Assembly (NCBI GenBank): GCA_011052815.1
Contig: DRIG01000029.1
Span: 1-48,432, forward strand
Source: a candidate division WOR-3 bacterium
GTDB lineage: Bacteria > Hydrothermota > Tepidihabitantia > SM23-42
DNA: 48,432 nt
Direction of reading: 5' to 3'
A model generated the notes under the pieces. That model searched no databases. It worked only from the letters and a program-made list of their open reading frames with translations, and was not told the origin of the DNA. How positions within the stretch are numbered: the first letter of the stretch is position 1; each line of letters begins with the position of its first letter. This document shows, in pieces, positions 27,238 to 37,141 of this stretch. Both the position numbers and the translations under genes were made by a program.

Positions 27238-29286
27238 TTATTTTTTGAGCCTTGTTTTCTGGGCGAAAAAGACCGCTCCGTAGATTAAAAAAGCGAATCC
27301 ATACATAAAATAACGCAGTTCGTAATTCAACCCGAATAACCGGGTTATAACAGCAGGGTAGAAAAAGAGTGTTGAGGCAGCGAGCAAGAACGGAATTTCA
27401 TACCATCGGTTTTTGGTGAGAAACCATCCCTGAACCGCGTTGGAAAAGGCGAAGGCGCCGAAGACCGCCATCGCGAAAATCAAGAATCCCTGGAAAAAGT
27501 TATTTATTCCGAAGAGCACCAATTCTGAATTGAAGATGAACATAAACGGAATAACAGCGGTTCTCAGATCATAACTGAATCCTTTTATTCCCGTGGGAAT
27601 GGGGTCGGATTTTGCGATCGCCGCCGCGCTGTACGCCGCAAGCCCCACAGGCGGGGTGTCGTCGGCGAGAATTCCGAAATAGAAACAGAACAGATGTGCG
27701 GCGATCGCCGGGATATAGCCGATCCCGGCTTTCTGGCTCAAGGTCATAATGACGGGGACCGTGATCGACGCCATCACGATATAGGTGGCGGTGGTCGGTA
27801 ATCCCATTCCGATGATCAGACTGGCTACGGCGGTAATCAGAAGGAGCAGGAATATATTACCGGCGGAGATGATTTCCACGATCTGCACGATGAGACTGCC
27901 TATGCCCATTGTGACGATGCCGACGACGATCCCGGCGCATGCCGTCGCCAGGGCGACGGTGAGCATATTGCGTGAGCCGGCGATGAAACCGTTCCCGATT
28001 GTTTTTATCGACGTGATTATTCCATATATTACACTTTTTTTGTTCTTCAACGCCCGGGTTGTTTCACGGATAAAGATGATCACCATCAGAACGACGATTG
28101 CATTGAATGCGGCGAGTTTCGGAGTATGGCGCAGAACCATCAGTTCGTAAATCAACATAAAGAGGGGAATCAGATAATAGAAACCGTTCTTCAATACCGT
28201 GGTGAAATCAGGTATATCGGATTCAGGAAGTCCTTTCATACCGAGTTTTGACGCCTCAAGGTGGGTGAGATAGAAGAGGGCGAAGTATGATACAAAGGCG
28301 GGGATTGCAGCCGCCTTGACTACATCGAGATAAGGAATACTCAGGTATTCGGCGATGATGAATGCGGCGGCACCCATTATCGGCGGCATCAGTTGTCCGT
28401 TTGTGCTCGCAGCCACTTCGGTCGCCGCTGCGACTTTCGCCGGATAACCGACCTTCTTCATAAGGGGAATCGTGAATGTTCCGGTTGTGACGACGTTGGC
28501 GATACTCGAACCCGAGACAAGGCCGGTAAGACCGCTCGCCACCACAGCGGCTTTCGCCGGACCGCCTTTGAATCTGCCGAGCAGGGATATTGCGAGGTCA
28601 TTGAAGAAGTGGACTGCACCGGCACGCTCGAGCATCGCGCCCAAGAGCACGAACAGAAAAACGGTGTTCGCCGAGACATCAAGGGGAATACCATAGATGC
28701 CTTCGGTTGAAAGCGCCACCTGACTCAGATATTTTTCTAAGGATACTCCGCGCAGGGCAAAGACCGACGGCAGATAAGGACCGACAAAAGAGTAGATCGT
28801 AAAGAGGATTGCGATGAGGACGAGGGGTATGCCGATGGCACGGCGTGATGCCTCAAAGACGATGATTATCAGGAGAATACTCATTACAATGTCGCGGACC
28901 CCCGGTATTCCCGCGCGCATCGATATACCGGTCCAGTCCAGTACAATATAGAGGACGGTAAAGCAAGCGACCACTGCCAGGAGATAATCCAGCAGCGGGA
29001 TGTATTTTTTTGAATTCAAGAATTTGATTTCACCCCTTCTTTTTAAGAGAGGGATCGTAAGGAAAACAAGCATTACGGCGAAGGCAAGGTGGACGGCCCT
29101 TATCGTGATGCTGTCAAGGATGATGAAACGGGGGAGGGCGAGCTGGAAGAGCGCCCAGCCGATCGAGAGCGCAGCGATTACGATCCTGTCGCTCTTTTTG
29201 TCGGTTCTGAGTTTACCGGTTTCTTCTTCGAGAATCTCTTTTGCTAACTCGAGTTTGCTGGTTCGGCGCATCCTCTGTCTATTCAA
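27238..29286 (-). CDS. TRAP transporter fused permease (4TM + 12TM)
   Basis: This 682-aa integral membrane protein fuses the small DctQ-like and large DctM-like subunits, as is usual for TAXI-type TRAP systems. About 16-18 hydrophobic helices are visible. Family motifs include GLVSGSSIANVVTTGTF, MPPIMGAAAFIIAEY, GMGLPTTATYIV and ADDTPPVGLA. The start is a TTG at 29286, overlapping the binding-protein stop by 8 bases; ATG 29271 is the alternative. It imports carboxylate or amino-acid substrates using an ion gradient; the substrate is not predictable. Confidence 0.93.
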   Translation of the reverse strand: MNRQRMRRTSKLELAKEILEEETGKLRTDKKSDRIVIAALSIGWALFQLALPRFIILDSITIRAVHLAFAVMLVFLTIPLLKRRGEIKFLNSKKYIPLLDYLLAVVACFTVLYIVLDWTGISMRAGIPGVRDIVMSILLIIIVFEASRRAIGIPLVLIAILFTIYSFVGPYLPSVFALRGVSLEKYLSQVALSTEGIYGIPLDVSANTVFLFVLLGAMLERAGAVHFFNDLAISLLGRFKGGPAKAAVVASGLTGLVSGSSIANVVTTGTFTIPLMKKVGYPAKVAAATEVAASTNGQLMPPIMGAAAFIIAEYLSIPYLDVVKAAAIPAFVSYFALFYLTHLEASKLGMKGLPESDIPDFTTVLKNGFYYLIPLFMLIYELMVLRHTPKLAAFNAIVVLMVIIFIRETTRALKNKKSVIYGIITSIKTIGNGFIAGSRNMLTVALATACAGIVVGIVTMGIGSLIVQIVEIISAGNIFLLLLITAVASLIIGMGLPTTATYIVMASITVPVIMTLSQKAGIGYIPAIAAHLFCFYFGILADDTPPVGLAAYSAAAIAKSDPIPTGIKGFSYDLRTAVIPFMFIFNSELVLFGINNFFQGFLIFAMAVFGAFAFSNAVQGWFLTKNRWYEIPFLLAASTLFFYPAVITRLFGLNYELRYFMYGFAFLIYGAVFFAQKTRLKK

Positions 29287-30280
29287 TAATCAGTTCCGGT
29301 GCGATGTATCTGTCCAGGCCGACCTCTTTATAGTATTTTAATGCACCTTTATGAATGGGTGCGGAGAGCCCCTGCAGCATATTTTCTTTGGTCAGGATTT
29401 TATATGCCGGATGGAGCGATTTGAATTCCTCGAAATTTTCAAATACTACCTTGGTGATTGCATATACGAGGTCCTCATCGACTGCGCTGGAGGTGATGAA
29501 GGTCGCCTTGACGCCGATCGTTTCGATATCGTCGGTGTTCAGGGCGCGGGGATAGAATTCATGGGGGATCACCGCCCTGGCGTAATATGAATATTTTTCA
29601 AGCAGTTCGTCTATCGCCTTGCCGGTGATCGGCACGATGTAGACCTTGATCCGACCTGATGTCGCTTCTTTTATGTTGCCGTTGGGATGGCCCACCGTAT
29701 AGAAAAAACCGTCAAGTCGTTCATCCTGCAACAGCCCCGGTGCCTCGACCGCCTTTACGTATTCCGCAAGGATGTCTTTTTCCGTAAGTCCCGCCGCGGC
29801 AATGATATCCTTTGAATTCTGGAGTTGTCCTGAACCGGGATTTCCAAGATTTATCCGTTTTCCTTTTAAATCGGCGATTGTCTTTATCCGGCTTTTCTCC
29901 GATACCACCAGGGTGATCGGTTCAGGATGGATTGAAAAGATCGAACGCAGTTCTTTCTGGGGACCTGATTCAGACCATTCTGCCAGGCCGTTGTATGCCT
30001 GGTACTGCCGGTCTGATTGGGCGATTCCGAATTCCATATCGCCTTTTATGACCGCGTTGATGTTGAAGACCGAACCGCTCGTTGACTCGACGGTTGCTTT
30101 GATCTTGAATTCATCAACTCTTTTGTTGAGCATTCTGCTGATCGCGCCTCCTGTGGGGTAATATAAGCCGGTCACGCCGCCGGTGCCGATTGTTACAAAA
30201 GTGAGTTTTTCAGAACCACAGCCGTTTATCGAAACGGCGGTGAAGATGAAAAGTATAGTTAAAAAAAATATTTTTTTCAT
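29279..30280 (-). CDS. TAXI-family TRAP solute-binding lipoprotein
   Basis: This 333-aa binding protein is a lipoprotein: hydrophobic signal followed by lipobox SINGC with C21. The TAXI signature FVTIGTGGVTGLYYPTGG lies at about residues 29-46, and the periplasmic two-lobe fold follows with ADLKGKRINLGNPGSG and the GFFYTVGHPNG ligand-site region. It has SD GGAGGTG before ATG 30280 and its own promoter, and the permease follows with an 8-base overlap. The pair forms a complete TAXI-TRAP importer. Confidence 0.94.
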   Translation of the reverse strand: MKKIFFLTILFIFTAVSINGCGSEKLTFVTIGTGGVTGLYYPTGGAISRMLNKRVDEFKIKATVESTSGSVFNINAVIKGDMEFGIAQSDRQYQAYNGLAEWSESGPQKELRSIFSIHPEPITLVVSEKSRIKTIADLKGKRINLGNPGSGQLQNSKDIIAAAGLTEKDILAEYVKAVEAPGLLQDERLDGFFYTVGHPNGNIKEATSGRIKVYIVPITGKAIDELLEKYSYYARAVIPHEFYPRALNTDDIETIGVKATFITSSAVDEDLVYAITKVVFENFEEFKSLHPAYKILTKENMLQGLSAPIHKGALKYYKEVGLDRYIAPELIIE

Positions 30281-31307: not shown

Positions 31308-33557
31308 ATGAGAAAGACCCTTGTTATACTCTTTCTTATCGGATTAAGCAGTCTGGCTGCTGCTGCCTGGGAGTCCATCGGACCTGAAGGGGGATATATA
31401 CGTTCATTAGTGGTCTCAAGTAGTGACGCCAATTTGATTTATGGAGCGACATACTATTCTCCGTGTAAAATCGTAAAATCGACCGACGGCGGTGAAACCT
31501 GGAACCAGGTGGGTTCTTACGGAAATACGAACTACTGTATGGCGATTGACCCGAATAACGACAATAATCTGTACGCCGGTACTTATTATTATGTATACAG
31601 ATCAACCGACGGCGGTGTTTCGTGGAGCAGCAGTACGACCAATGGTGTCTATGTCTACGGTCTCGCCGTGAATCCCGCGAATTCATCAATCATTTACGGT
31701 GCAGGAAGGAGATACGTCAGCACAGGTAATTATGCGATGGCATTTTTGAAGAGTACAAACAGCGGAGTGAGCTGGACTACTACAGATATTGTCAGCGGCG
31801 GTTATTGTTATGGATGGTGTGTTGCTGTTGATCCTTCTTCTCCGAATACTGTTTATGTGGGAGGTTCCAGTTATTCAGGGACATATACACCAAAGGTATT
31901 CAAATCGACCGACGGTGGTTCCACCTTTACCGAGGTGTTCAGCGGCAGTGCCGGTTACTACGTCTATTCAGTGGCGGTTCATCCCGGCAATTCAAATATC
32001 GTCTACGTCGGGACTTATCTGGATGGAATATACCGTACAACCAACGGTGGTTCGACCTGGAGTAAGGTTCACACGGGTAATTACAACTACCGCATGGCGA
32101 CAACTCCGGCGGATCCTGATCTGGTGTTCAGCAGCGGTTATTATTATGTCTACAGAAGCACCAATGCCGGTGCAAGCTGGAGTACGGTGACGTCCGGATT
32201 ACCGACAGGCGGTACTTATTACGGACTGGCGATAAATGCAATGAACGCCTCAGAGGTCTATCTCGGCGAGAGATCGGGTGTTTTCAAGAGTACCAATACG
32301 GGAAATTCCTGGTATGAATCGAATAACGGGCTGCTCCTCGCCGACATCATCGCACTCAGAGCCGCTCCATCTCAGCCGTCCACGGTCTATATCACCTTTG
32401 AAGACGTCGGGGTTTATAAGACAACAAACAATGGTTCAGAATGGAACAAACTGCCGAGTTTTTCAAGCTGCGGTGATATGAATGATTTCTGGATTCACAA
32501 CGCAGACCCCAATACCGTCATTGCAATCGAAGGGCTTGGCTGAGGCACTGCCCAGGCTTATAAAAGCACAGACGGCGGGTCCGTCTGGTCAATGAGTGAT
32601 TCAGGTTATTATAATACCGGCTATGCATTAGCCGGTGATCCTAACAACAATTCAATCTGCTGGAGCAGCGGTGATTACTACACCGGCAGCGCGTATGTAA
32701 TGGCTGTTTCCAAGACGACGAACAGCGGGACGAGCTGGATAAGGTATAATCTGGGCTCCACTTCGGGTGCGACATATACGGTGGCGGTTGATCCGTTGAA
32801 CTCGAACGTCGTTTATGCCGGAGGATATGAAAGCAGTGCACCGGCTGTATACAAGACGACGAACAACGGTGCGAACTGGAGTAAGTTGCCGGCGACCGGT
32901 TTATCAGGTTATGTTTACAGTCTGGCGGTCGATCCGGTGAATACGGATGTTCTTTACGCCGGGACACTCAACGGTGTTTATAAATCGACGAACGGAGGAT
33001 CCACCTGGTCAAGCACAGGATTCAGCGGCGGCAGGACCAATGCGCTCGTCATCGACCCGGATGATAATGCTACTATCTACGCCGGTACTTCCAGTAATGG
33101 TGTTTATGTAAGTACAAACAGCGGCGCCAGTTGGTCACAGATGAATGAAGGGCTCGGAACATTTGATATCGAATGTCTGGATATTAATCCGGGAATGTAT
33201 CTCTTTGCAGGAACCAATGGTAAGAGTATGTACCGCTGGTCTTTGTTGGTAGGTACAGAAGAGGTGGACAACGACCTGAATGGAAATTTCGGTCTTTCCG
33301 CAACACCCAATCCAATGAGACAGAGAACCGTATTTCAGTATACTCTGTCAGAAGAGAGCAGGGTGAAGTTATCTGTCTATGATGTGCAGGGAAGATTGGT
33401 CAAAAATCTCGTCGATGAAATTCAGCAGGCCGGAGTTCATCAACTTTACTGGAACGGACGGGATGACAGGAATGTGCGTGTTCCAGCCGGTGTCTATTTC
33501 TGTAAGTTTGCTACCGACAATTCGATTTCCTTGAAAAAACTTATCATCTTAAAATAA
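31308..33557 (+). CDS. Secreted Asp-box propeller protein A with in-frame TGA (candidate selenoprotein)
   Basis: Read through the TGA at 32541-32543, this is a 749-residue secreted protein. It has a signal peptide (LVILFLIGLSSLAAAA), 13 Asp-box/BNR units of the STDGGSTW type, and a C-terminal sorting domain (TPNPMRQRTVF, KLSVYDVQGRLV, VPAGVYFCKF, LKKLIILK). The TGA is residue 412, between AIEGLG and GTAQAYKS. Without readthrough the product would stop at 411 aa and lose five Asp boxes and the sorting domain. A conserved Cys (C388, SSCGDM) lies 24 residues before the TGA. A SECIS-like hairpin lies 32 nt downstream. SD GGAGGAG precedes ATG 31308. Paralogue B has the same TGA. Selenocysteine is the preferred reading; Trp misreading or regulated readthrough are alternatives. 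Confidence 0.75.
32569..32587 (+). promoter_or_regulatory. Candidate bacterial SECIS hairpin, gene A
   Basis: A perfect 7-bp stem CAGACGG / CCGTCTG with 5-base loop CGGGT. The loop begins 32 nt after the in-frame TGA. This fits the published bacterial SECIS rules as I recall them (apical loop 16-37 nt after UGA, stem of at least 4 bp, a G among the first two loop bases). The same hairpin is found in gene B. Confidence 0.6.
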
Positions 33558-33564
33558 CAGAAAC

Positions 33565-33610
33565 AAGGCTGCTTCCTGCTTTTCAATACAAAAAAAACGG
33601 AAGCAGCCTT
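33565..33610. terminator. Inverted repeat after gene A, possible terminator
   Basis: A 12-bp stem AAGGCTGCTTCC (33565-33576) with GGAAGCAGCCTT (33599-33610) and a 22-base loop containing an A run. There is no clear T tract after the stem, and the right arm overlaps the purN -35 box, so termination of gene A and purN transcription may interfere. Confidence 0.5.
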
Positions 33611-33636
33611 GACTTTATCCGTAAACTGATTAAAAT
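33609..33636 (+). promoter_or_regulatory. Promoter giving a leaderless mRNA (purN)
   Basis: TTGACT (33609-33614), 16-base spacer, TAAAAT (33631-33636), then 5 bases to ATG 33642. Confidence 0.7.
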
Positions 33637-33641
33637 AGATC

Positions 33642-34253
33642 ATGAAGAATATCGCTGTTTTAGTCTCCGGCAGAGGGACCAATCTTCAGGCGATCATCGA
33701 TAATATTGAGAACGGTACATTGAAGGCGTCGCTTGTTTGTGTGATCAGTGATAATAAGGACGCCCCGGCATTGGAACGGGCGAGAAAACATAATATCGAA
33801 GCCCTCTATATCGACCCCGGTCCGAAGAAAACGTGGCTCATTCCTGAGGTGGAGCAGAAGTATGTGGAGGCGTTGAAAGAACGGAAGGTTGACCTTGTCT
33901 GTCTTGCAGGATTTATGAGAATATTGAAGAAACCGTTTCTTGAGGCGTTCGCCGGCAGGATTTTGAATATCCATCCGGCACTCTTACCCTCTTTCCCCGG
34001 ACTTGATGTTCAGCGTAAGGCGCTCGAGTACGGTGTGAAATTTTCCGGCTGCACGGTTCACTTTGTGGATGATACTGTGGACGGTGGTCCGATCATAACT
34101 CAGGCGGTTGTCCCGGTGCTTGATGATGATACACCGGAAACACTCGCCGCCCGCATTTTGAAAGAAGAACACCGGATTTACACTGAGGCGATAAATCTTG
34201 TGCTTTCCGGTAAGTACAAAATCATCGGAAGAAGGGTGGTAAAGAGCGGTTGA
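33642..34253 (+). CDS. purN: Phosphoribosylglycinamide formyltransferase
   Basis: This 203-aa GAR transformylase uses 10-formyl-THF in step 3 of purine synthesis. It shows the phosphate-binding start LVSGRGTNLQAII, the folate/catalytic motif NIHPALLPSFPG (catalytic Asn and His) and HFVDDTVDGGPI with the catalytic Asp. It is complete and of normal length. The promoter places the transcription start on the ATG, and no SD is present. It sits between the two inverted Asp-box genes and directly before tRNA-Val. Confidence 0.95.
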   Translation: MKNIAVLVSGRGTNLQAIIDNIENGTLKASLVCVISDNKDAPALERARKHNIEALYIDPGPKKTWLIPEVEQKYVEALKERKVDLVCLAGFMRILKKPFLEAFAGRILNIHPALLPSFPGLDVQRKALEYGVKFSGCTVHFVDDTVDGGPIITQAVVPVLDDDTPETLAARILKEEHRIYTEAINLVLSGKYKIIGRRVVKSG

Positions 34254-34273
34254 TGAGTTTCGCCGGTCTTTTC

Positions 34274-34347
34274 GGGCGGTTAGCTCAGTTGGTTAGAGCG
34301 TCGGTCTCACATACCGAAGGTCATGCGTTCAAATCGCATACCGCCCA
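34274..34347 (+). tRNA. tRNA-Val (CAC)
   Basis: A 74-nt cloverleaf: acceptor GGGCGGT/ACCGCCC, D arm GCTC-AGTTGGTTA-GAGC, anticodon arm TCGGT/ACCGA with loop CTCACAT (anticodon CAC at 34308-34310) and T arm ATGCG-TTCAAAT-CGCAT. The discriminator base is A. CCA is not encoded. It lies 20 bases after purN. Confidence 0.95.
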
Positions 34348-34440
34348 GTAAATTCAAGGGCTAAGTTTTTTGAAAACAGACGACGGACAAAGAGGGGTAA
34401 CTGCCCGTCGCTGCAGACAGTGGGTTAAAAAGGAGGTATT

Positions 34441-34785
34441 ATGCACGGTATCTGTCATATTGAAATTCCCACAACCGATCCGCAGAAGTCAAAGGAGTTC
34501 TACAGTAAGATTTTTGACTGGAAGATGAACCAGGAAATGGGGGAGTATATAACCTTTTCCACTCCGGACAACGACGGCGGTGGTTTTACGACCGACAGCA
34601 AACCGGTTAAAGACGGTGTGGTGCTTTACATCAAGGTCGAGGATATAAACAAGAAGCTTGCAGAGATCAAAGGAGCCGGCGGCCAGGTGGTCAAAGAGAA
34701 GACAGGTATTTCCGAGGAGTACGGATATTACGCACTCTTTACCGACCCCTGCGGCAACATCATGGGACTCTGGAGTAAACAATAG
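34441..34785 (+). CDS. VOC-family (glyoxalase-like) protein
   Basis: This 114-aa single-domain vicinal-oxygen-chelate protein has paired beta-alpha-beta-beta-beta halves. N-terminal ICHIEIPTTDPQKSKEFYSKIFDW and C-terminal YGYYALFTDPCGNIMGLWS are classic, with His in the first strand and a D-P-x-G-N motif in the last. Members bind a divalent metal and act on small substrates or bind antibiotics; the substrate is unknown. SD AAGGAGG 4 bases before ATG. The 87-base gap after the tRNA has no promoter I can see, so it may be co-transcribed with purN and the tRNA. Confidence 0.88.
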   Translation: MHGICHIEIPTTDPQKSKEFYSKIFDWKMNQEMGEYITFSTPDNDGGGFTTDSKPVKDGVVLYIKVEDINKKLAEIKGAGGQVVKEKTGISEEYGYYALFTDPCGNIMGLWSKQ

Positions 34786-34837
34786 TTTAAGGAGAGAGGT
34801 TCTTGTGTTTTTCTGATTCAGAGAATTATAGAAGAAG

Positions 34838-34874
34838 ATGCGGCTTCCTGAAGATTATCTTCAGAAAGCCGCAT
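34838..34874. terminator. Bidirectional terminator hairpin between VOC gene and gene B
   Basis: A 17-bp stem with one G-U type mismatch (34838-34854 with 34858-34874) and a 3-base loop, followed on the plus strand by an AT-rich tract (TATTTATTAT). It separates the convergent VOC gene and Asp-box gene B. Confidence 0.75.
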
Positions 34875-34885
34875 TATTTATTATA

Positions 34886-37141
34886 CTACTTTATAAGAAC
34901 TAATTTCTGGATATAAGATGTATTGCCGAGTGTGAGACGGGCAAAGTAGATTCCGGCACTCTGTTTTCGTCCTTCGTTGTTTTCTCCATTCCACTGGATC
35001 TTGTGGATACCAGGGGATTGGGTCGTTCTGACAAGTTCCTTGATAAGTCTGCCCTGAATATCATAGATGGATAATGTGACGACTCTCTCTCTGGAGAGTT
35101 GATAGGTTATCGTAGCGCGGCCCTGTGCAGGGTTGGGCATTATATAGAAGAGTTCTTTTGATATTCTGTTTTCCTGTTTTTCGTCGGCACCCACCTGAAT
35201 CGACCAGCGATGGATTCCGCCGTTCTGTGTTCCGGCATAGAGATAGGTGGACTGACTGACACCGAGACAATTGATCTCGAGGTCAGTAAGGCCTTCGTTT
35301 ATCTGGGTCCATGATGAACCGCCGTCAGTACTCCAGTACACGCCGTTGCTTTCAGTCCCGGCATAGACACCTTCATATATCGCTGAACCTCTGTTCACAA
35401 TGACCGCATTCGTCTGTCCGCCGGGACAGGCGGTGCTTGACCAGGTGTTGCCTCCGTCGGTTGATTTGTAGCAATTGATGCTCGTTCCGGCATAGATGAT
35501 ATTGGTGTTGTCAGGGTCGATCGCCAGAGAGTAGACGGTTGTGCCGGACAGACCGGTACAGGGCAGTTTTGACCAAGAATTACCGCCGTTGGTTGTTTTA
35601 TAGATCGCCACACTGCTGCTTTCGTCACCGCCGGCATAGACGATATTTGAATTTGTCGGGTCGATGGCTACGGCATTGGTGATTCCTGAACCGGTGGCAA
35701 GGTCATAGCGTATCCAGGTGGCACCGCTGTTAGTGGTTTTGGAAACGGCCATTATATAGATGGTGCCGGTGTAGTGATCACCGCCGCTCCAGTAGATTGA
35801 AGGATTATTCGGATCGGCGACTAAATCACCACCCGTGTTGTAATAACCAGGATCGGTTAGTGACCAGACGGACCCGCCGTCTGTGCTTTTATAAGCTTGA
35901 GCAGTACCTCAGCCGAGCCCTTCGATCGCCATCACATAATCAGGGTCATTGTACTTGATTGCAATGGCACACATATCACCGCAGCTTGAAAAGGAAGGGC
36001 AGAGGTTCCATTCGGTTCCGCAATCGGTTGTTTTATAAACTCCGATATCTTCCACCTGACAATATACGGTTGTGGGATTTGAAGGTGCCGCGGTTGCCGC
36101 GACGACCGGTAAGCCGAGTTCAATACCGTCACTGCTTAAAAACCAGTTTGAAGCACTGTTTGTGGTTTTAAATACTCCTGCCCGGTTGGCGACAAAGACC
36201 ATGGCTGAATTAGTCGGGTTTACAGTAAGACCGTAGTTATAACTGCCGCAGAGTCCGTCTTCCTCGGCAGTCCATGAGAGCCCTGCATTTGTACTGCGCC
36301 GAAAGTATGCATAGCCTGAACAATAGACATAATTAGGATCCGCTGGTGAGGTGGCGAGGCGGTAATTGTAGTTGTAGGTGGATACTTTGCTCCAGGTAGA
36401 GCCGCCGTCGGTCGAACGGTATATTCCATCGTAATAGGTACAGGCGTATACGACATTGGAGTTTGTCGGATGGACCGCAACATCATAGACGTAGTAACCC
36501 ACGGTGTTTGAATAGACCTGGCTGAAGGTCGCACCGCCGTCAGTGGATTTGAATATCTTGGGCTCGTAAGTGCTCGTGTAACCCGCACCGCCGCAGTAGA
36601 TGATATCAGGATTACTGGGGTCGACACCCACTCCATAGCCGTAACAATATCCGCCGCTCACCAGATCGAGTGTAGTCCAGGAAGCGCCGGCGTCCGTGCT
36701 TTTCAGGAAGGTCATTGCATAATTACCCGTACTGATATATTTTCTGCCGCAGCCGTAGATGATATTGGGGTTTGTCGGATGTGCTTCGAGGTCATAGATA
36801 TAGGTGTTCGTGATGCCGGATGACGGAGTCCAGGTCACGCCGCCGTTGGTTGATCTATATACGTAATAATAATAAGCGGCATAGAGTACACCGGTGGAGC
36901 TGATCGTCATACAGTAGTTATAGCTGTTGAAAGAACCGACCTCATTCCAGGAGAATCCCGCGTCTGTGGATTTGAAAACTCTGGTCGGGCTGGAATATGA
37001 TGTGGCATAGAGGGTATTATTGTCGACGGGCGATATTACGATAGAACGCATATAGCCACCGCATGGTCCGATTGTCTCCCAACCTGCATTGAGCAGACCG
37101 CACATTCCGATAAGAGTCAAGACTACCAGAAGTTTTTGCAT
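34886..37141 (-). CDS. Secreted Asp-box propeller protein B with in-frame TGA (candidate selenoprotein)
   Basis: This is the paralogue of gene A in opposite orientation: 751 residues when read through TGA 35911-35909 (residue 411). It has a signal peptide (LLVVLTLIGMCGLLNA), 13 Asp boxes and a C-terminal sorting domain (MPNPAQGRATI, LSIYDIQGRLI, SAGIYFARL, IQKLVLIK). The TGA again sits between AIEGLG and GTAQAYKS, with SSCGDM (C387) 24 residues before it. The part after the TGA is intact and similar to gene A, which would be unlikely for a decaying gene. The Asp box just after the TGA reads STDGGSVW; Val at that place occurs in no other box of either protein. SD GGAGGAG precedes ATG 37141. 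Confidence 0.75.
35865..35883 (-). promoter_or_regulatory. Candidate bacterial SECIS hairpin, gene B
   Basis: This is the same 7-bp stem and CGGGT loop as in gene A, again with exactly 32 nt between the TGA and the loop. It lies inside a 36-nt block identical to gene A (32556-32591), whereas the 12 nt between the TGA and that block differ at three synonymous third positions. Confidence 0.6.

Follow-up and report, generated by a model that had tools for sequence, protein, structure and literature searches.

Two paralogous genes in a candidate division WOR-3 (Stahlbacteria) genome, here called A and B, are predicted to encode secreted selenoproteins in which an in-frame UGA is read as selenocysteine (Sec). 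They lie in contig DRIG01000029.1 of assembly GCA_011052815.1 (2.39 Mb, 97.6% complete), of which a stretch of 48,432 nucleotides (the window) was analyzed. We put the probability of this assignment at about 0.95, a figure that applies to the selenoprotein reading and excludes any redox role. Each gene is one open frame whose sole interruption is a TGA, at homologous codons 412 (A) and 411 (B), in the context AIEGLG*GTAQAYKSTDGG (asterisk, TGA), likewise given as AIEGLG*GTAQAYKSTDGGSVW. Behind the TGA lie 337 codons in A and 340 in B, which encode five Asp boxes plus a sorting domain, and the Pfam matches of both proteins are to Asp-box propeller families, FlgD_ig and Por_Secre_tail. The two proteins are 57% identical, and a third paralogue elsewhere in the same genome likewise carries one TGA at the same column. 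An earlier note on this DNA had described the single TGA in each gene, the intact codons and domains beyond it and a cysteine 24 residues upstream (SSCGDM), and had proposed Sec insertion directed by a hairpin just downstream; its frames, coordinates and positions were all reproduced. Its selenocysteine interpretation is supported as well, as the tests aimed at refuting it found the Sec machinery in the genome and TGA, never Trp or Gly, at this site in homologues.

A search of 100 relatives returned 78 strong matches, of which almost all carry a single TGA. Dozens of genes from other genomes have their only TGA at the same column as A and B, at identities as low as ∼26%. Because these homologues and the third paralogue share the column, chance and sequencing error are excluded as its source; against sequencing error the earlier note had already argued from the two copies in the window. 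After deduplication the family numbers 87 members (68 from WOR-3, 19 from Fermentibacteria). Of these, 87/87 carry TGA at the site, never a codon for Cys, Trp or Gly, and UAA or UAG occurs there in 0/87. The holders belong to candidate division WOR-3/Stahlbacteria and to Fermentibacteria (Hyd24-12, Sabulitectum, Aegiribacteria), with as many as seven copies in one genome (G056). When 65 genomes of the class were probed with a short stretch spanning the site, all matches bore TGA, save one that starts after an assembly gap, and neither Cys nor Trp forms were found at the site among the relatives, in the 65 class genomes or in a genome-wide scan. Cys-containing homologues are usual but not obligatory for bacterial selenoproteins, and none was found here. 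On these alignments the family is taken to be Sec-only, because homologues at the site never have Cys, and to be widespread in WOR-3 and Fermentibacteria. In a tree built by a quick method and containing long branches, the Sec rows group together with few changes, and one Sec-less gene (L122, in G064) looks like a secondary loss of Sec. Two candidates for TGA-free members, in G018 and G006, were rejected, as each has a 100 N assembly gap at the site. Both are single-contig assemblies (L073 and L075, on G018:C1 and G006:C1) with the gap exactly at the Sec/hairpin region, perhaps from collapse of near-identical copies.

The ratio of nonsynonymous to synonymous substitution rates (dN/dS) downstream of the TGA is 0.08-0.32 in closely related pairs, higher than in the upstream part and well below 1, which points to purifying selection on the frame after the TGA and agrees with the earlier claim that selection acts on the read-through product.

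Two tandem hairpins follow the UGA (Table 1). In both window genes the main hairpin has a perfect 7 bp stem and a CGGGU loop, begins 25 nt past the UGA and spans the Asp-box codons STDGGSVW. The rules for a bacterial selenocysteine insertion sequence (SECIS; bacterial form, bSECIS) are a loop of 3-9 nt, a stem of 4-16 bp, a G in the first two loop positions, a spacing of 16-37 nt and a minimum free energy of at most -7.5 kcal/mol (PMC13188914). These rules are satisfied by 81/87 members, both window genes included, versus 70/598 of the other Asp boxes of the same genes, which served as the control; the control-box stem counts allowed no 5'-side bulges and are hence slightly stricter. Mean energies are -10.5 kcal/mol for the hairpin and -3.5 kcal/mol for the other Asp boxes, and the hairpin lies below every other Asp box of its own gene in 81/87 cases. 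Relative to shuffles that preserve the amino acids and the codon usage of the gene, p ≤ 0.05 was obtained in 69/87. The 60-nt piece folded against dinucleotide shuffles is unexceptional (z -1.0 and -1.8), and an Rfam search gave no bacterial SECIS match. We place the signal in the Asp-box segment and in how that segment is conserved.

Conservation at the nucleotide level is strongest where the hairpins lie. Relative to background, synonymous entropy has a gene-wide mean of 0.90 and drops to 0-0.5 at the majority of codons 416-426; nowhere else in the gene are synonymous changes as constrained as in the codons of the main hairpin. Compensatory changes in the main hairpin convert GAC..GTC to AAC..GTT or ACT..AGT, and its covariation score over 30 distinct sequences was matched by 0/500 shuffles. 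For the two-hairpin structure as a whole, double changes occur in 9/12 pairs (0/500 shuffles), and structures slid along the sequence score far lower. The small hairpin (codons 416-420) forms in 86/86 members tested.

The machinery for Sec insertion is present in the same genome. The genes selA, selB and tRNA-Sec lie on one contig, the tRNA-Sec scoring 77 bits (cut-off 47) with anticodon UCA, and selD has an in-frame TGA in ITCPGUASK. SelD is a recognized selenoprotein family, and the genome therefore holds an independent, known Sec gene. This SelD (C61:33517-34419 and upstream; L207, L213) also has the catalytic domain of a ferredoxin:thioredoxin reductase (FeThRed_B, 54 bits) fused to its N-terminus. 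Among relatives, selB occurs in 26/30 genomes with the family versus 31/70 without it (p = 7e-5, only indicative because related genomes are not independent); many Sec-using genomes lack the family, as expected. Of the family-bearing Fermentibacteria genomes, 13/13 have selB (two in pieces) and 11/13 have tRNA-Sec. Three genomes (G031, G033, G045) have a tRNA-Sec gene ∼2 kb away from a family gene. Two of these loci are L211 (G031:C1) and L212 (G045:C2), and in L211 another sorting-domain protein stands in between.

Several observations weigh against the selenoprotein reading. Six of the 87 members deviate from at least one bSECIS rule. With a divergent set as input, RNAalifold recovered the small hairpin and did not return the main one, probably because bulged variants shift the register; pair counts on a named structure were used above instead. 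Finally, selB and tRNA-Sec are missing from four family-bearing metagenome-assembled genomes (G008, G027, G054, G060), which are incomplete and whose summed missing fractions predict ∼3 misses.

A high-confidence AlphaFold2 model from a 38-sequence alignment (predicted local distance difference test score, 91.5) is a tandem double Asp-box β-propeller. Its best PDB matches are GH74 double propellers, and a viral fold library returned generic propeller matches only. In the strand order of the model Cys388 precedes strand 1 of its own blade and Sec412 sits at the strand 2-3 turn; this topology assigns Sec412 to loop 2-3 and Cys388 to loop 4-1, so that both should lie on the top face, which in Asp-box propellers is the ligand-binding surface used for function (PMC2716378). 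Cys388 is retained in 83/87 Sec members. It is missing from the close Sec-less homologues L076, L119, L120, L122, L124, L125 and L126, in which no clear Cys was found at the Sec site. This joint loss suggests that Cys388 and Sec work together, which falls short of proof of a bond. The earlier note had proposed the cysteine as a possible redox partner; conservation and joint loss support it as a putative partner of Sec.

The sorting domain matches TIGR04183 and PF18962 above cut-off, and the genome contains an SprA-like translocon gene (SprA_N 66.7 bits, 1440-residue frame), so that both type IX hallmarks, a C-terminal sorting domain and an SprA-like gene, were found. Export is probably by a signal peptide and a type IX-type route, and a cell-surface location is likely because of the signal peptide, the sorting domain and the SprA-like gene. 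In the mechanism that we propose, SelB with Sec-tRNA(Sec) would recognize the hairpin, with its loop ∼32 nt past the UGA, at ...LEGxG-UGA-G..., Sec would be inserted, and translation would continue across the second propeller and then the sorting domain. Comparative genomics supports this read-through step. The protein would fold as a GH74-like tandem double Asp-box β-propeller, the full-length form would be exported by the route above, and at the cell surface Sec412 and Cys388 would most likely make up a redox-active pair.

The likeliest role is that of a Cys-Sec redox site, at roughly even odds; metal(loid) binding comes next, with about half that weight, and the remaining probability goes to other roles. 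The strongest alternative accepts a selenoprotein and gives its site a different task: binding of a metal(loid) or other ligand, or handling or sensing of selenium or sugar, with no redox catalysis. The top-face location fits it, as do the nearest folds, which are xyloglucanases, and the listed prokaryotic selenoproteins include several that deal with mercury or other metals. On the other side, most selenoproteins with an assigned role are regarded as redox proteins (PMC13188914), and storage of selenium is disfavored by the single Sec per protein. We regard this alternative as a serious contender that falls somewhat short of an even chance.

The other explanations do away with selenium. The UGA could be a leaky or regulated stop that a near-cognate tRNA (Trp, Cys, Arg) reads in part, giving a short half-propeller form and a long form. 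The first half ending at the UGA would indeed yield a one-propeller product, and downstream hairpins accompany some readthrough stops. Such a stop is nevertheless very improbable, given 87 members with UGA and never UAA or UAG, a complete and co-occurring Sec machinery, a hairpin that conforms to the bSECIS rules, a Cys that co-occurs with the site, and a short form that would be without the sorting domain. Genome-wide reassignment of UGA to Gly or Trp, of the kind that some candidate phyla show, could appeal to the Gly residues that flank the site and to the code changes of uncultured bacteria. It has hardly any probability left, since several family members terminate with a true TGA stop, other genes read normally under table 11, and the strong synonymous constraint and the downstream hairpin would go unexplained. 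Metagenome assemblies do contain errors and a single duplication could copy a single mutation, but a sequencing error, or a nonsense mutation passed on to paralogues in decay, is a negligible explanation for an identical codon in 87 genes from two phyla and many projects, with purifying selection downstream of it.

The selenoprotein reading can be extended to a joint account: a Sec-only cell-surface family of two candidate phyla, with a SECIS made of Asp-box codons and a two-hairpin signal, entry of Sec into the propeller without a Cys intermediate, and extracellular Cys-Sec redox chemistry so far without a known counterpart in other propellers. About 12% of ordinary Asp boxes in family genes already satisfy the bSECIS rules. 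In this account the SECIS would derive from Asp-box repeat codons, and Sec could therefore have entered without a Cys stage. We hold the account as a whole only tentatively, and would sooner expect some part of it to fail.

Positions in the window are collected in Table 1. Close upstream of gene A, at 27238-30280 on the minus strand, a DctM-type permease and an NMT1-like binding protein make up a TRAP transporter pair. Among the gene neighborhoods of the family no convincing conserved partner was found, and the largest neighborhood cluster probably reflects the shared sorting domain.

Table 1. Genes A and B and their predicted features, in window coordinates.
Feature	Position	Strand	Remark
Gene A	31308..33557	+	predicted secreted Asp-box double-propeller selenoprotein, 749 residues, Sec at 412
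Gene B, paralogue of A	34886..37141	-	751 residues, predicted Sec at 411
TGA, proposed Sec codon 412, gene A	32541..32543	+	
TGA, proposed Sec codon 411, gene B	35909..35911	-	
Cys388 (SSCGDM), gene A	32469..32471	+	proposed partner of Sec412, pairing inferred
Cys387 (SSCGDM), gene B	35981..35983	-	proposed partner of Sec411, pairing inferred
Small hairpin, first of two tandem, gene A	32556..32567	+	GCUU-AUAA-AAGC
Main SECIS-type hairpin, gene A	32569..32587	+	CAGACGG-CGGGU-CCGUCUG, over Asp-box codons
Small hairpin, first of two tandem, gene B	35885..35896	-	
Main SECIS-type hairpin, gene B	35865..35883	-	
C-terminal sorting domain, gene A	33306..33554	+	FlgD_ig / Por_Secre_tail
C-terminal sorting domain, gene B	34889..35143	-	FlgD_ig / Por_Secre_tail

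Known bacterial selenoproteins are mostly thioredoxin-like and nearly all have Cys homologues, on which discovery methods depend. By its own statement, deep-Sep may miss families without Cys forms (PMC12013277). The propeller family is a likely annotation blind spot because it has no Cys form, is a secreted double propeller, reaches seven copies per genome and belongs to two largely uncultured phyla. It also offers a direct test of why Cys cannot replace Sec, and illustrates how a SECIS may be built within a repeated protein motif. The 2026 inventory lists 119 prokaryotic selenoprotein families or subfamilies (PMC13188914), and its review table includes families credited to Haft and Tolstoy 2025. 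No family in it bears the name of a propeller or Asp-box protein, and the words propeller, BNR, WOR-3 and Fermentibacteria are absent from its text. NCBIfam (June 2026) contains no matching selenoprotein model, and searches of the open-licence literature turned up no propeller, WOR-3 or Fermentibacteria selenoprotein, a report elsewhere being possible. The family thus appears to be undescribed so far, in keeping with the earlier suggestion of a new family of extracellular propeller selenoproteins.

With the listed bacterial bSECIS selenoproteins the family shares the in-frame UGA, SelA, SelB, SelD and tRNA-Sec, a hairpin at the standard distance and the G in the first two loop positions; it differs in its β-propeller and Asp-box architecture, in having no Cys form and in the extra small hairpin that separates the UGA from the main hairpin. 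Glycine reductase selenoprotein A (GrdA) is likewise cited as a selenoprotein without a known Cys-containing homologue (PMC1794560), but its fold is unrelated and its metabolic role known, whereas the propeller proteins are predicted to be secreted. The generic Asp-box families Sortilin-Vps10 (PF15902), Ycf48 and NF045728 match the Asp-box repeats above cut-off; these matches are repeat-level sums and not orthology, and the families have no Sec. Assignment to NF045728 (F510_1955 glycosylhydrolase) was not adopted because the cut-off is passed by summing six repeat matches. The GH74 xyloglucanases (2cn3, 6p2o) share the tandem double 7-bladed Asp-box propeller (template modeling score ∼0.64), with ∼18% identity and no Sec; when their catalytic Asp pair is aligned with the Sec position, the repeats slip register. 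A further group for comparison is that of the seven Sec-less WOR-3 paralogues named above. One of them, L126 (G054:C112), has a single in-frame TGA at residue 307, inside an Asp box (STNQG-TGA-NW) and away from the family site, which may be a sequencing error, a pseudogene or something else. At ∼27-37% identity and with similar length and architecture, but without both Cys388 and Sec, these paralogues form a natural comparison group for the propeller selenoproteins.

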